DNA of 64,000 nt from positions 62,001-126,000 of the forward strand of contig NZ_LAJH01000011.1 of the NCBI RefSeq assembly GCF_001292625.1. The letters run 5' to 3'. The DNA is from Shimia sp. SK013 (GTDB taxonomy: Bacteria > Pseudomonadota > Alphaproteobacteria > Rhodobacterales > Rhodobacteraceae). The notes below the pieces were generated by a model that worked only from the letters and a program-made list of their open reading frames with translations, did no database searches and was not told the origin of the DNA. The translations under genes and the position numbers were made by a program. Below, in pieces: positions 49,008 to 56,798 of the stretch; position 1 is the first letter of the stretch; the number at the start of each line of letters is the position of its first letter.

Positions 49008-50423
49008 TTAGGCTGCGGGGCGCGCCATTGTGACATTGTTGCGACCACAGGCTTTGGCGCCATAGAGCGCTTGGTCTGCAAGGTCGATCAATGTCGTGGC
49101 GGTGGCGTCGTTTGAAGGCATCGCTTCGGCCTGAAAGTGGTCGGACTCGCTCTCGCTGCCCATGGTTACCCCGATGCTGATGGTGACCGGAATGCGCAGG
49201 TCGCGATCGCGTAAGTAGACTGGTGTTTTTCGGACGACATCACGCAAATGATGCGCCAGTTCTGAGGCGCTCTCAGGTGTGGCTCTTTGCATCACAATCA
49301 GGAACTCTTCGCCGCCGATCCGCGCGATCAGGTCGCCGGCCTCAACAGTTGCACGCAGGCGGCGGGCCACCTCTGCGAGCACGATGTCACCTGCGGCATG
49401 GCCGAACTTGTCATTCACCAACTTGAAGTGATCCAGATCCGCAACCATCACCGCGAAATCTTGACCCTGAAGGCGCGCTTTGTGTGCTGTTCGAGCCAGC
49501 TGCGGCAAGGCATAGCGGCGGTTGTGGAGCCCCGTGAGCGGATCGGTCACAGCTGCGTTTAATCCGGCTTCAAGCGAGCGCGACATGCGGTCCATGAGCT
49601 TTTTGCGTTTGAGGATGACCGCAAGGCGCAGCGCCGCTTCTTCCGGATCAAAACTGCCAACCATCACGTCGTTGGCCCCTAAGTCCAATGCATTCACCCG
49701 CGCGCTGTCATCTTCGCGGTCTAGCACCATCAACACGGCCGCTTGGCGTGTTGCGGCTCTGGCGCGGATCTCCGCGAGAAATCGCAGGCCTTCTTCGAGA
49801 GTGTCGGCGGACACACCAATGACGAAGCCGTCGGGCACCGCAAAATGTGACATGGTTCGGACCGCATCGCATATGGAGTCGGCGCGCATACGATAGGGCA
49901 CGAGAGGTTTCAAACGGCGACACCATTTCAGCGCGTCCGCGCCGTCACGGGCGGCAAACACCAGCGCAGCGGGAGCGTCAAAGGCGCTGCTGTCTTCGGC
50001 AAGACCGGGAATGCGCTTCGCCGTTTCCTGCAGGCGCAAACCATGTACCGTGTCATGGGCGCGTTGCAAACAGCGGATACGCGCAAGAAACGGGCCCTCG
50101 CTGATAGGGGAGGTGATGATATCATCCGCACCAGCGCGCAGAGCAGCGAGCCTGTCGATGCGGGAAAAGTCGCTGCCGGTTACGATGATCGGCAGAGCCG
50201 CGCCGTCGGCGGACGTTTTAACAGTACGGCAGAAATCATCACGCACCATGTCCGTCAGGTCGCCGCCCAAAATCACCAGATCCGGCGGTTCTGACCGGAT
50301 CATTTCGAGGGCTTCTTGTCCTGTTTCGGCTTGGCGCGTATCCATAAAGCTGCCCGACAGCCGCGCTTTGAGCACACAGCGGTTTGAAGCAATACTATCG
50401 ACGATCAAAAGATGACCTGTCAT
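49008..50423 (-). CDS. PleD-like diguanylate cyclase with degenerate receivers
   Basis: 471 residues in REC-REC-GGDEF order, as in PleD. The first receiver (1-120) begins LLIVDS, with one acidic residue, and at the phosphoacceptor position reads VILGGDL. The second (about 155-280) reads FVIGVSADT at the same place. The GGDEF domain (about 300-460) has DPLTGLHNRR, DLDHFKLVNDKFGHAAGD and an intact GGEEF, so catalysis is likely. The autoinhibitory I-site is lost: EAGD takes the place of RxxD. Phosphorylation control is therefore doubtful. Confidence 0.87.
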   Translation of the reverse strand: MTGHLLIVDSIASNRCVLKARLSGSFMDTRQAETGQEALEMIRSEPPDLVILGGDLTDMVRDDFCRTVKTSADGAALPIIVTGSDFSRIDRLAALRAGADDIITSPISEGPFLARIRCLQRAHDTVHGLRLQETAKRIPGLAEDSSAFDAPAALVFAARDGADALKWCRRLKPLVPYRMRADSICDAVRTMSHFAVPDGFVIGVSADTLEEGLRFLAEIRARAATRQAAVLMVLDREDDSARVNALDLGANDVMVGSFDPEEAALRLAVILKRKKLMDRMSRSLEAGLNAAVTDPLTGLHNRRYALPQLARTAHKARLQGQDFAVMVADLDHFKLVNDKFGHAAGDIVLAEVARRLRATVEAGDLIARIGGEEFLIVMQRATPESASELAHHLRDVVRKTPVYLRDRDLRIPVTISIGVTMGSESESDHFQAEAMPSNDATATTLIDLADQALYGAKACGRNNVTMARPAA

Positions 50424-50789: not shown

Positions 50790-50879
50790 CACCGTATTCG
50801 CGCCGGTGAAAGCGCTTGTGCGACATAGAGCGGTGGGGCAAGGTCCGGCCAACAAGACTGGCCACGACAGGATTATGTG

Positions 50880-51569
50880 ATGCGCGCGGATGGGGTTCTC
50901 TTTGACAAGGATGGCACGCTTTTTGATTTCGGGGCGACTTGGAATGCATGGGCGTATACGGCAATTCACGAATTCGCGTCGGGTGAGGCCGGACTTGCCG
51001 CGCAGATTGCCGAGGCACTTGCCTTCGATTTGGACGCGCGCAGTTTTCGGGCCGACAGCTTTGTGATTGCGGGCACCAACCGCGAGGCGGCAGAGGCCGT
51101 CGCTGCGGTTGTTGAAGGCAGCGATGTGGATGCGATTGAGCGTAAGTTGGCGGTTGATGCCGCCCATGCGCCGCTTGCGCCAGCTGTGCCGCTTGCGCCC
51201 TATCTACAGGATTTGCGCGCCAAGGGTCTAAAGCTTGGCGTAATGACCAATGACAGCGCCTATTCGGCCCAAGCCCAATTGCAAAGTGCAGGCGTGACTG
51301 ATCTGTTTGATTTCATTGCGGGATTTGACAGCGGCTATGGCGCCAAGCCTGATCCCGATCCCTTGTTGGCTTTTGCTGACCAGCAGGCGTTGGCGCCGGA
51401 ACGGGTCGTCATGGTTGGCGACAGCACCCATGATTTGATTGCGGGTCGGCGCGCCGGCATGCAAACAGTCGGCGTTCTGACCGGCATGGCGGCAACAGAC
51501 GAACTTGCGCCTTATGCCGATGTGGTTTTGCCCGACATTGGCCATATCCCCGGATGGCTCGTGACCTGA
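50880..51569 (+). CDS. HAD family phosphatase (phosphoglycolate phosphatase-like)
   Basis: 229 residues. LFDKDGTLFDF is motif I with the nucleophile Asp, LGVMTNDS is motif II, KPDPDPLL motif III and VVMVGDSTHDLIAGRRAGM motif IV. The four motifs are intact and in order, with a helical cap domain between I and II, so it is a Gph-type HAD phosphatase. ATG 50880 with AGGA 9 bases upstream; the GTG just before is in frame but less favourable. The target phosphate ester is unknown. Confidence 0.88.
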   Translation: MRADGVLFDKDGTLFDFGATWNAWAYTAIHEFASGEAGLAAQIAEALAFDLDARSFRADSFVIAGTNREAAEAVAAVVEGSDVDAIERKLAVDAAHAPLAPAVPLAPYLQDLRAKGLKLGVMTNDSAYSAQAQLQSAGVTDLFDFIAGFDSGYGAKPDPDPLLAFADQQALAPERVVMVGDSTHDLIAGRRAGMQTVGVLTGMAATDELAPYADVVLPDIGHIPGWLVT

Positions 51570-51761: not shown

Positions 51762-53348
51762 ATGGCGGACACAGATGGGCGCGCGCAGCGCAAAGGCGGA
51801 CGAACCGGTGGCAGAGCCGGCGGGCGGGCCGGCAAGGCGGCGCGGCGCGGTAAGGCAGGTGTCATCGAGCAGATGCCATGGCGGTTGCCGGTCAATATGG
51901 ATCGGCCCACGGAGCCTCTGAGCCCTGAGGGAGTGCAGGCCATCCACGAGGGATCGATGCGCATTCTTGAAGAGATTGGCATCGAGTTTTTCAACACAGA
52001 GGCCCGCGACATCCTCAAAGAGGCCGGATGTGCTGTGGACGGGGATACCGTACGCATGGGGCGTGATTTTGTGATGGAAATGGTGGCCAAAGCGCCGTCA
52101 AGCTGGACGCTGACCCCGCGCAATCCGGACCGTCAGATCACAATGGGCGAAAACCACATCCTGTTTGGCAATGTGTCCAGCCCGCCCAACTATTGGGACA
52201 TGGAACTGGGTCGCAAGGTGCCTGGAACCCGCGAAATGTGCGCGAACCTCTTTAAGCTCAGCCAGTATTTCAACTGCATCCACTTTGTTGGCGGCTATCC
52301 GGTGGAACCGCAGGACATCCACGCATCGGTGCGCCATCTGGACGTGCTTTATGACAAGCTTACGCTGACCGACAAAGTCGCCCACACCTATAGTCTCGGC
52401 AAAGAGCGGGTTGAGGACGCGATGGAGATGGTGCGCATCTCCGGTGGCTGGACAGATGAGGAATTTGAGGCCAGCCCAAAGCTTTACACCAACATCAACT
52501 CCACTTCGCCGCTGAAACACGATGAGCCGATGATGGACGGTTGGATGCGTATGGCGCGGCGCAATCAGGGGCTTGTGGTCACGCCATTCACGCTTGCGGG
52601 GGCGATGGCGCCTGTGACCATGTCGGGTGCGGTGGCGCAATCGCTGGCGGAGGCGCTTTGTGCGGTGGCTTTGGCGCAATACATCCGCCCGGGCGCGGCT
52701 TGTGCGATTGGCACGTTTACTTCGAATGTGGATATGAAATCGGGCGCGCCGGCCTTTGGCACGCCGGAATACATGCGCGCCACGCAGATGACCGGCCAGA
52801 TGGCGCGGTTTTACGATCTGTCAATGCGGGCCAGCGGCGTTTGTGCAGCCAATGTGCCGGACGGGCAAGCCATGTGGGAGACCTCAAACAGCCTCTGGAG
52901 CGCGGTACAGTCGGGCGCCAATATGGTCTATCATGCGGCCGGTTGGCTTGAAGGCGGTCTGATCGCCAGTCCCGAGAAATTTGTGATGGATTGCGAAGTC
53001 TTGCAGATGATCCAGCGTTATATGGAGCCGGAACTCTGGGCGACGGGGCCGGATGAGATCGCGATCGATGCGATCAAAGACGTCGGCAGTGACGGACATT
53101 TCTTTGGCGTCCAGCACACTCAGGATCGCTATACCACCGCGTTTTACCAGCCGTTTGCCTCCGATTGGCGCAACTATGAGGCGTGGGAGGCTGCGGGCGG
53201 CGTGTGGACGCCGGAACGCGCGCATCACATCTACAAAGACATCATCAATGACTTTGAGGCCCCGCCAATGGATGAGGCAATCCGCGAAGAGTTGGCGGCA
53301 TTCGTTGCGCGGCGCAAAGAAGAAGGCGGCGCACCAACCGATTTCTGA
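51762..53348 (+). CDS. MttB-family corrinoid methyltransferase (non-pyrrolysine)
   Basis: 528 residues of the trimethylamine methyltransferase family. Recognisable segments include ILEEIGIEFFNTEARDILKEAGC, PPNYWDMELGR, TPFTLAGAMAPVTMSGAVAQSLAEALCAVALAQ and YHAAGWLEGGLIASPEKFVMDCEVL. No in-frame amber codon occurs, so pyrrolysine is absent, as in MtgB-type enzymes that demethylate glycine betaine or other quaternary amines with a corrinoid protein. The first 35 residues are Arg/Gly-rich and basic. No corrinoid-protein gene lies nearby. Start at 51762 with GGGAGG upstream. Confidence 0.9.
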   Translation: MADTDGRAQRKGGRTGGRAGGRAGKAARRGKAGVIEQMPWRLPVNMDRPTEPLSPEGVQAIHEGSMRILEEIGIEFFNTEARDILKEAGCAVDGDTVRMGRDFVMEMVAKAPSSWTLTPRNPDRQITMGENHILFGNVSSPPNYWDMELGRKVPGTREMCANLFKLSQYFNCIHFVGGYPVEPQDIHASVRHLDVLYDKLTLTDKVAHTYSLGKERVEDAMEMVRISGGWTDEEFEASPKLYTNINSTSPLKHDEPMMDGWMRMARRNQGLVVTPFTLAGAMAPVTMSGAVAQSLAEALCAVALAQYIRPGAACAIGTFTSNVDMKSGAPAFGTPEYMRATQMTGQMARFYDLSMRASGVCAANVPDGQAMWETSNSLWSAVQSGANMVYHAAGWLEGGLIASPEKFVMDCEVLQMIQRYMEPELWATGPDEIAIDAIKDVGSDGHFFGVQHTQDRYTTAFYQPFASDWRNYEAWEAAGGVWTPERAHHIYKDIINDFEAPPMDEAIREELAAFVARRKEEGGAPTDF

Positions 53349-53416
53349 GCCAATTTACCACGTTGTTTTTCCACATAGTTTTGCGGTACTATCCCGCCAA
53401 ATCTGTGGAGACTGGC

Positions 53417-55132
53417 ATGTATAGCGAAGACGGGCGAACCATGGCGGGACGCGTTGAGATGGCCATCGTTGGTGCGGCGGCGGGATTGGCGATGTGGGCG
53501 CTGGTGGACAAAGGCCGTGACATCGTCACGAACCCGCACGCGTATCTGGCAACGGTGTCCTTTGCCGCCGGTTTTTTTGCGATTCTTCTTGGGCTGAGCG
53601 GCCCGCATCGGGTGGCACGTGCAGCTTTGCCTGCGTTGCTGCTTGGTGGCATCGGCGCTCTCCTCATCACGTTGTCGGGGTTGCGGTTTGGCACACTGGA
53701 CGAGATTGGACAGGCGGGGCATCCCATCGCGGGATGGGCTTTGTTTCTGTGTATCGCCACGCCGTTTGCAGCCGTCAGATTGGTGCAACACGAAAGCCTG
53801 ACGGACTACGGCCGGCTGTTTGACACAAGCTGGAGCATTTTGGTGCGCTATTCAGCCGGTTGGTTGTTTTCAGGCATTTTCTTTGGCGTGGCGTTTTTGT
53901 CCCATGCCTTGTTGGACATTGTCGGCATCACGATCATCGAAGATCTTTTGGAACACGAGCCAGTCCTGTGGGCATTTGTTGGTTTTTCACTGGGGCTTGG
54001 CTTGTCAGTCGTGCACGAGCTGCGGCAATATTTGTCGCCTTACCTGTTGTTGCGGATGCTGCGCATGCTGGTGCCGGTGGTGCTGGTGGTGGTGGCGGTA
54101 TTTGCTGCTGCGGCGCTGTTTCAGGGGCCGGATCAGCTGTTTGGCAGCCTCAGCCGCGCGGCAACCCTTTTGGCGGTCGCGCTGGTGATGATTTCTCTGA
54201 TCACCATCGCGCTGGACCGCAGTGATGCGGATGCGTTTGAGCCGCGATGGATGCAACTGTCAACGGCAGCTTTGGCGATGCTCTTGCCGGTGATCGCGGC
54301 GCTTGCAACCTATGCGATCTGGCTGCGGGTGGCGCAATATGGCTGGACGCCGACGCGTCTGCTATCGGCGGCGGTGGCGTTTGTCATTGTGCTGCACGCG
54401 GTGGCGTATCTGGTGTGCGTTGTGATGGGCGCCGGCTGGATGGCGCGGGTGCGTCGGGCCAATGTCTGGATTGCGGGCGCGACCCTAGTTTCAATCGCGG
54501 CGTGGATGTCGCCGGTTTTGAATGCCGAGCGAATTTCCACATCAAATCAGATGGCACGGGCCGAAAGCGGCGCGGTGCGCCCTGATCAGGCGCCGCTTTG
54601 GGAAATGCAGCATGAGTGGGGTAAGGCAGGACGGGACGGGCTTGAAGCGCTAAAAGTCTCAGAAAATGTCGCGCTGGCTAAAGCCGCGGAAGAGGTATCC
54701 AAAGGACGGCGACCGGGCCGCGAAGATCAGCGGGCAGAAATGGTCCAGCAACTTTTGGAGGTTTTGGTTGTTTTGCCAGCAGGTGAACAGATCACTGCAG
54801 ATCAGATTGGCAACATGAGCTCTTGGGAATTGGCCGAGTTTGAAGACTGCGGAGAAGACCCCGAGAACCGGTGTGTTCTGGTGTTTGGAGACTTTGGCGC
54901 GACCGTTGAAGGTCGGCAAGCGATTTTGCTGCAATCTGAACCGGGTCGGTCGTCCTGGCGGCGCTGGATGGTGACTTTCGATTCAAATTCAGTCGATTTC
55001 CAACGGCTCGCCAGCCGTTATTCCTTGACCAAGGCGCATATCCAAAGGCTTGTTGACGGGGACTATCGCGTGGCGCCTTCAAGCCTTAACTCTCTTTGGA
55101 TTGGTGACTTTGAAATCTTACCGACCGAGTGA
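53417..55132 (+). CDS. DUF4153 membrane protein
   Basis: 571 residues from the ATG at 53417 (GGAGA 7 bases upstream); an earlier ATG at 53363 lacks a ribosome site. About 12 hydrophobic segments in the first 370 residues are followed by a 200-residue soluble region with QLLEVLVVLPAGEQITADQI and DCGEDPENRCVLVFGDFG. FSGIFFGVAFLSHALLDIVGI and similar blocks correspond to DUF4153, a family of unknown function. The periplasmic C-terminal region is longer than the usual DUF4153 tail. Confidence 0.82.
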   Translation: MYSEDGRTMAGRVEMAIVGAAAGLAMWALVDKGRDIVTNPHAYLATVSFAAGFFAILLGLSGPHRVARAALPALLLGGIGALLITLSGLRFGTLDEIGQAGHPIAGWALFLCIATPFAAVRLVQHESLTDYGRLFDTSWSILVRYSAGWLFSGIFFGVAFLSHALLDIVGITIIEDLLEHEPVLWAFVGFSLGLGLSVVHELRQYLSPYLLLRMLRMLVPVVLVVVAVFAAAALFQGPDQLFGSLSRAATLLAVALVMISLITIALDRSDADAFEPRWMQLSTAALAMLLPVIAALATYAIWLRVAQYGWTPTRLLSAAVAFVIVLHAVAYLVCVVMGAGWMARVRRANVWIAGATLVSIAAWMSPVLNAERISTSNQMARAESGAVRPDQAPLWEMQHEWGKAGRDGLEALKVSENVALAKAAEEVSKGRRPGREDQRAEMVQQLLEVLVVLPAGEQITADQIGNMSSWELAEFEDCGEDPENRCVLVFGDFGATVEGRQAILLQSEPGRSSWRRWMVTFDSNSVDFQRLASRYSLTKAHIQRLVDGDYRVAPSSLNSLWIGDFEILPTE

Positions 55133-55196
55133 CGGTGTTGTGACTTTGTTAACCTCAATATGGCTTTATCGATGCGAGAACGATTGAGGTGAGCAG

Positions 55197-55784
55197 ATGC
55201 ATGGTCTGATTAACAGAGCCATACAGTGTTTTGTGCGCGACAGTTATGGGCAGCGGCGTTGGGTGGATGTGACCCGTTTAGCCGGACTCGAAATTATTGA
55301 TTTCGAAGCGATGCTGCAATACGAGGACAGCACAACAAAAGCGTTGGTCGCGGCCATTGCCAAAACTCTGCGTGTGCCCGAAGAAACCGTGCTCGAGGAC
55401 TTAGGCACCTACCTCGTGTCCCACCCGAATGTCGAGGCGCTCAGGCGTCTTTTGCGGTTTGGCGGCGTGAATTTCGTTGAATTCCTCCATTCCCTGGATG
55501 ATTTGCCCGAGCGCGCCAGGTTGGCCGTGGATGACCTGATAATACCGGGGTTGGAGCTTGAAGAACTCAGTCCTGACAGGTTTAGCCTGCGATGTTCATA
55601 TGACTATGTCGGGTTTGGCCATGTTATCATCGGGGTTCTCAGAACGATGGCGGATGATTATGGTGCGCTTGTGTTCCTTGAACACAATGGCGTTAAAGAC
55701 GGGGTTGAGGTCATCGATATAACGTTGATTGAAACTGCCTTTGCCAGTGGCCGTGAGTTCGATTTGGGCGCGCGTGCGGAATAG
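55197..55784 (+). CDS. H-NOX (heme NO-binding) homologue lacking heme ligands
   Basis: 195 residues. MHGLINRAIQCFVRDSYG, LGTYLVSH and LLRFGGVNFVEFLHSLDDLP show the H-NOX fold. The axial heme histidine that follows the LD(D/N)L sequence in family members is Pro104 here. The heme-propionate motif YxSxR has become Cys133-Ser-Tyr135-Asp-Tyr137. His98 four residues earlier might substitute, but no other candidate is nearby. It lies 9 bases ahead of an HNOBA-GGDEF gene, the usual partner of H-NOX sensors. GAGGTGA precedes the ATG. Confidence 0.85.
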   Translation: MHGLINRAIQCFVRDSYGQRRWVDVTRLAGLEIIDFEAMLQYEDSTTKALVAAIAKTLRVPEETVLEDLGTYLVSHPNVEALRRLLRFGGVNFVEFLHSLDDLPERARLAVDDLIIPGLELEELSPDRFSLRCSYDYVGFGHVIIGVLRTMADDYGALVFLEHNGVKDGVEVIDITLIETAFASGREFDLGARAE

Positions 55785-55793
55785 GGTGCGAGT

Positions 55794-56798
55794 ATGACGG
55801 ATACGCAAGACATGCTTCGGATGTTGGACGTTTTATGTCCAATGCACGTCCAATTGGACGCGAACGGACTGATTTCCCACGCTGGCCCGACGTTGCAAAA
55901 ACTGTATCCGGACCTCGCGTTGCCGGGGCAAGGCTTTCTGGATGTCTTCGAGTTGAGCCGCCCCAAACGCATCACAAATATGGAAGGGTTGCTGGCAACC
56001 GCGGGGCAAAAATTGCACCTGCGCAAACGCTTGAAACCGCTCACGGGGCTCAAAGGGGTTTTGGTGCCAATGCCCATGACGGGGGGCGCGATGGTGAACC
56101 TTGGGTTTGGCATTTCGATTTTGGACGCCGTGAGCGACTATGATCTGAATGCTGCTGATTTTGCGGCAACAGATCTGACGATTGAAATGCTGTATCTGGT
56201 GGAAGCAAAATCCGCCGCGATGGAGGCGTCTCGCAAGCTAAACCTACGTTTGCAGGGGGCGATGATCGCCGCCGAAGAACAAGCGTTTACTGACACGCTG
56301 ACCGGTTTGAAAAACCGTCGTGCGCTGGAACATATCCTTCCGCGTCTGGTCAAGGATTGCACGCCTTTCGGTCTGATGCAGGTCGATTTGGATTTCTTCA
56401 AGCAGGTGAATGATGCTCTTGGCCACGCGGCAGGCGATGCGGTTTTGCAACATGTAGCGCGCGTTTTGGTGGAGTCCAGCCGCGACGAGGATTGCGTTGC
56501 ACGGGTTGGCGGGGATGAGTTTGTGTTGGTGTTTCGTGGCGCCACTGATCTCGAGATTATGGGACGTATTGCGGATCGTATTATTTCCGAAGTCGAAAAC
56601 CCTGTGCCGTTCCGCGACACGATCTGCAAAGTATCCGCCAGCGTGGGCATCGCTATGTATTCAGGCTGCGGTGAGACCGATATGGATCAACTGCTGAGCG
56701 ACGCCGACACGGCGCTTTATGCGTCCAAGCACGCGGGACGTTCGACGTATCGGGTGTTTGAACCGCAGATGCGCGACTCCGGTCCGTTGGCGGGTTAA
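55794..56798 (+). CDS. HNOBA-GGDEF diguanylate cyclase
   Basis: 334 residues. The N-terminal HNOBA domain (about 10-140) has HVQLDANGLISHAGPTLQKLYP, FELSRPKRITN and the closing DFAATDLTIEMLYLVEAK, the PAS-like domain that partners H-NOX in guanylyl cyclases. A helix leads to the GGDEF domain: DTLTGLKNRRALEHIL, DLDFFKQVNDALGHAAGD and intact ARVGGDEFVLVF. The I-site RDED lies 5 residues before the motif, so product inhibition is likely. Co-transcribed with the H-NOX gene. Confidence 0.92.
   Translation: MTDTQDMLRMLDVLCPMHVQLDANGLISHAGPTLQKLYPDLALPGQGFLDVFELSRPKRITNMEGLLATAGQKLHLRKRLKPLTGLKGVLVPMPMTGGAMVNLGFGISILDAVSDYDLNAADFAATDLTIEMLYLVEAKSAAMEASRKLNLRLQGAMIAAEEQAFTDTLTGLKNRRALEHILPRLVKDCTPFGLMQVDLDFFKQVNDALGHAAGDAVLQHVARVLVESSRDEDCVARVGGDEFVLVFRGATDLEIMGRIADRIISEVENPVPFRDTICKVSASVGIAMYSGCGETDMDQLLSDADTALYASKHAGRSTYRVFEPQMRDSGPLAG

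Follow-up and report, generated by a model that had tools for sequence, protein, structure and literature searches.

A heme-ligand-less H-NOX-fold protein encoded beside an intact diguanylate cyclase in Shimia sp. SK013, and its relatives across Rhodobacterales

H-NOX proteins that lack heme ligands and are paired with a cyclase have already been described in the literature. Lee-Lopez and Yukl (2022; PMC8738867) reviewed a very large 'Group 5' of H-NOX proteins, in which His is found in <10% of members and Pro in most, reported no conserved Cys in this group, and asked how such proteins sense any signal; the legend of their neighbourhood figure names GGDEF, MTTB, and HAD families, the group being unspecified in that legend. 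Kumar and Spiro (2017; PMC5588039) described an H-NOX of P. denitrificans that, like the R. sphaeroides one, is without the axial histidine. Deletion of hnoX lowers biofilm in that species, deletion of cyclases raises it, and an NO-responsive HnoX was proposed by the same authors. In two papers that cite the original work (PMC8846402, PMC7232146), the H-NOX of D. shibae is reported to inhibit Dgc1 in its NO-bound form, and it is listed as a heme NO sensor (PMC8846402). Precedents for NO-independent output exist in the H-NOX proteins of Caulobacter and Vibrio cholerae (PMC12329717, PMC7108781).

We analysed a 64,000-nucleotide stretch of the genome of Shimia sp. SK013 (hereafter the window; contig NZ_LAJH01000011.1, positions 62,001 to 126,000), which encodes an H-NOX (HNOB)-fold protein of 195 amino acids on the forward strand (55197..55784). 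The H-NOX fold of this protein is beyond doubt: PF07700 matches at 76.1 bits (E = 3.8e-21; curated cut-off 25.5 bits), the AlphaFold2 model has a pLDDT of 91, and the best structural match to the model is human sGC beta (VIA-align Z = 23.1, rmsd = 2.1, 178 residues), with Nostoc H-NOX at Z = 22.0. No NCBIfam model matched the protein. A gap-free phmmer alignment with Nostoc H-NOX (4iae), spanning residues 37 to 167, places the ligand histidine at Pro104 (codon CCC, 55506..55508, forward strand), a placement also obtained with the orthologues, and places the conserved H-NOX proline of the heme pocket at Pro117. At the position of the YxSxR motif, residues 133-137 read C-S-Y-D-Y (55593..55607, forward strand), so that Cys, Tyr, and Tyr stand at 133, 135, and 137 where Nostoc H-NOX has Tyr, Ser, and Arg. 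As judged by these alignments, the window protein lacks both features of a heme-binding, NO/O2-sensing H-NOX, the axial histidine and the YxSxR propionate motif. Nostoc H-NOX and the sGC beta heme domain have the same fold (Z = 22-23 across some 178 residues) but keep both motifs and bind heme. The earlier note on this DNA had claimed a retained fold, Pro104 at the axial position, and Cys/Tyr/Tyr in place of YxSxR, and had proposed searching by alignment for a conserved histidine at the axial site; all three claims were borne out, and the search did not refute its reading.

That note had presented the protein as a singular case, which it is not: the same state is that of the majority in a large, already published orthologue group of Rhodobacterales. 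Among 248 genomes sampled from the bacterial family, 181 have a PF07700 match, and a profile built for this particular H-NOX group finds members in 99/121 genomes of the order. From 287 loci we obtained 227 distinct in-group proteins, a set for which an adjacent cyclase was required; clear group members without an adjacent cyclase numbered only three (L064, L161, L167). The axial histidine is absent in 207/227 proteins. The residue there is P in 165, H in 20, E in 10, A in 8, Q in 7, R in 5, S in 4, N in 3, T in 2, and K, D, or G in one each, so that ten kinds of residue other than Pro and His account for 42/227. A complete YxSxR was found in none of the 227 (Tyr133 in 2, Arg137 in 10), whereas all six outgroup proteins have both His and YxSxR. 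The loss of the heme residues is therefore not a matter of chance. Pro117 is kept in 227/227. No Cys column is conserved, the two most frequent reaching 60% and 40%, and this sets the group apart from the Caulobacter and Vibrio cholerae proteins, which keep the His and have a Cys/zinc redox site.

These proportions resemble those reported for Group 5, with His in 9% of our set (20/227), Pro in 165 including the window protein, and no conserved Cys. The gene order in the window (HAD-MTTB-DUF4153-H-NOX-DGC) is also alike, as far as the review's legend naming GGDEF, MTTB, and HAD goes. We found no difference from Group 5 among the features compared, and by these features the window gene belongs to it. 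P. denitrificans HnoX/DgcA (Pden_3719/3720) is likewise similar, with Pro in place of the axial His (confirmed by us in the HAMBI_2443 protein, L288), no YxSxR, and an adjacent GGDEF cyclase; it differs from the window protein in sequence (37% identity) and in the location of its gene on a 1.7-Mb replicon. Its host is a denitrifier, whereas neither nirS nor nirK was found in the window's genome.

The D. shibae protein differs at the decisive residue. Locus L172, which we take, in part from its map position, to be the one on the Dinoroseobacter shibae DFL12 chromosome, encodes an orthologue (46% identity) with an adjoining cyclase of the same type and no YxSxR, but with the axial His kept (LDDLHDRARL). 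The D. shibae protein, reportedly NO-responsive, would then sit in the 9% His minority, a point newly added here, and NO sensing should therefore not be carried over to the Pro majority without test. This bears on current usage: H-NOX proteins of this group are annotated 'heme NO-binding' (e.g., that of Phaeobacter sp. G2, L289), and papers apply the D. shibae NO-inhibition result to R. capsulatus and other relatives. The window protein, like most of the family, is without heme ligands, and the c-di-GMP pathway is found across Rhodobacterales.

The partner gene begins 9 nt after the H-NOX ORF (55794..56798, forward strand) and encodes a diguanylate cyclase of 334 amino acids; among the orthologue loci, the median gap between the H-NOX stop and the cyclase start comes to -4 nt, i.e., an overlap. 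Spacing and conserved adjacency suggest that the two genes are co-transcribed. The GGDEF domain matches at 143.4 bits. Its active-site motif GGDEF (residues 239-243, 56508..56522, forward strand) is invariant in 33 aligned cyclases and present in 226/227 partner cyclases, and the I-site RDED (RxxD; residues 230-233, 56481..56492, forward strand), five residues ahead of it, is kept in 224/227. All 20 partner cyclases of His-bearing members have both. The description of this protein as an intact HNOBA-GGDEF cyclase holds for GGDEF and RxxD. At the N-terminus, HNOBA (PF07701) matches above its cut-off (27.1 vs. 23.4 bits) but only over residues 9-62 (54/216 positions), and in the AlphaFold2 model (pLDDT 94.7) a PAS-like domain reaching roughly residue 105 is followed by a long helix (128-164) and the GGDEF domain. 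PAS-GGDEF proteins match the model with Z = 24-25 but a large rmsd, which we read as a probable difference in domain orientation. The modelled architecture would fit control through the N-terminal domain.

The loss of all textbook heme ligands is what a decaying, non-functional remnant would show, but this alternative is highly improbable and is already contradicted by selection, prevalence, and mutant phenotype. For eleven pairs of closely related His-less genes, dN/dS was 0.04-0.09, and the gene is therefore under strong purifying selection despite the absent ligand. Internal stop codons are lacking among the family matches listed, 99 of the 121 genomes of the order carry a group member, as noted above, and the hnoX mutant of P. 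denitrificans has a phenotype (PMC5588039). What is conserved is not heme ligation, since position 104 changes at the rate of an average site (44 parsimony steps vs. a median of 48), whereas Pro117 shows zero changes on the tree.

We followed the history of position 104 on two trees of H-NOX plus cyclase (FastTree and IQ-TREE fast, both approximate), rooted with His-bearing outgroups. The posterior for His at the crown of the group was 0.22 on one tree and 0.01 on the other, which makes a loss of His close to the group's base probable. His104 is now scattered over separate lineages. A model without regain of His gave lnL = -88.6 vs. -62.9 on the FastTree tree and lnL = -92.5 vs. -62.3 on the IQ-TREE fast tree, where the Mk rates depend on the approximate topologies. 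On these values we lean toward regain of His, as a lean and not as a result; the number of regains may be inflated by topology error, and therefore only the lability of position 104, as read from these trees, is firm. Pro (CCN) and His (CAY) codons are one base apart, and one protein otherwise placed among Pro relatives (L098, 74% identity to the window protein) carries CAT at position 104. His104 showed no association with carriage of nirK/nirS (8/19 vs. 20/61 genomes, Fisher P = 0.58). Residues that seemed coupled to His104 (Trp135, 45% vs. 6%; Leu82; Asp189) were rejected, their raw contrasts vanishing after correction for kinship. A broader and rather doubtful proposal is that the whole family has abandoned heme chemistry and controls c-di-GMP by sensing some other molecule or none at all, with His reappearing only sporadically and the NO sensing of D. 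shibae re-acquired locally instead of being ancestral to the group.

In the main rival to the reading preferred below, the window protein would still bind heme by way of His2, His98, Cys133, water, or a ligand from outside the protein, and would sense NO or redox state through that heme. The heme-pocket proline Pro117 would agree with this, being kept in 227/227; so would S. oneidensis H-NOX H103G, solved in the Fe(II)CO state (2kil), in which a histidine-free pocket holds heme, and the His-bearing D. shibae orthologue, listed as a heme NO sensor (PMC8846402). We nevertheless consider it unlikely, for no member retains YxSxR, the motif that binds the heme propionates, and no candidate ligand is universal (H2 in 205, H98 in 139, and C133 in 137 of the 227). 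His98, which the earlier note took for the only nearby replacement ligand, has to be given up on position and distribution alike. It lies six residues ahead of position 104 on the same predicted helix (93-110 in the AlphaFold2 model) and is therefore not on the face of position 104; it is less conserved than H2 or H76 (169/227); and its presence does not track loss of His104, since it is common both to His104-bearing (7/11) and to His104-lacking (109/162) members, and therefore does not compensate for that loss.

We favor, with somewhat better than even confidence, a partner role without heme: the H-NOX-fold protein would dock on the co-encoded cyclase and modulate it, its input being something other than a His-ligated heme. 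The idea of a re-purposed fold or cyclase partner had been put forward in the earlier note together with the singular status and the His98 ligand dismissed above; the idea itself is reasonable because both heme motifs are lost, the cyclase is intact, and the gene is under purifying selection. The protein would most likely carry no histidine-ligated heme and perform no classical NO sensing. Its most likely role, by analogy with D. shibae, is that of a partner dedicated to this cyclase: it would dock on the PAS/HNOBA-like N-terminal part and alter c-di-GMP synthesis, probably downward, the direction being taken from the same analogy. Possible inputs are another small ligand, the redox or the metabolic state, or mere protein amount. 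The P. denitrificans protein is a Pro member, and its loss in the hnoX mutant still impairs biofilm (PMC5588039), which counts for the heme-independent reading; the H103G structure (2kil), in which a pocket without histidine can hold heme, counts against it, as does the NO-responsive HnoX that Kumar and Spiro propose for P. denitrificans (PMC5588039). As a sub-case of this preferred reading, the former heme pocket may bind a different small molecule. The fold and the motifs RRLLRFGG, ADDYG, and GRxFxL are strongly conserved, and the question raised in the 2022 review, how Group 5 proteins sense any signal (PMC8738867), invites such a ligand; residues 133, 135, and 137 are highly variable, which speaks against it, and we regard this sub-case as a tentative possibility.

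Upstream of the pair on the forward strand are genes for an MTTB-family methyltransferase (51762-53348; PF06253, 719 bits) and, directly before the H-NOX gene, a DUF4153 protein (53363-55132); a HAD gene of the window (50877-51569; PF00702, 92 bits) precedes them. Among the H-NOX loci compared, 131 have MTTB relatives in their flanks, a conserved arrangement without an explained link to c-di-GMP, and in 75 loci a DUF4153 homologue is found near H-NOX. The reverse strand (49008-50423), some 5 kb away from the H-NOX/DGC pair, encodes a second diguanylate cyclase, which is PleD-like with a receiver and a GGDEF domain (GGEEF motif); GGDEF matches in the window's genome total eight.

The sequence TTAACC, a possible but weak CtrA half-site, lies 48 nt before the H-NOX start (55149..55154, forward strand). 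It occurs at -70 to -35 in 37/232 relatives vs. 0 in the control interval at -170 to -130, and TTAA-N7-TTAA, one mismatch being allowed, was observed in 48 vs. 7 expected, mostly near -60. This clustering fits the reported CtrA control of the R. capsulatus and D. shibae genes.

The window's genome encodes another H-NOX (L001:1483-2043) that is canonical, with His and YSSER, and stands beside a hybrid histidine kinase; this gives the organism a candidate classical NO sensor as well. In a further canonical-type H-NOX (L027:1383-2036), Gln replaces the axial His and YxSxR is kept, a possible second independent loss. In Phaeobacter sp. G2 (CP104104.1), the entire HAD-MTTB-H-NOX-DGC block is carried on a 120-kb plasmid.
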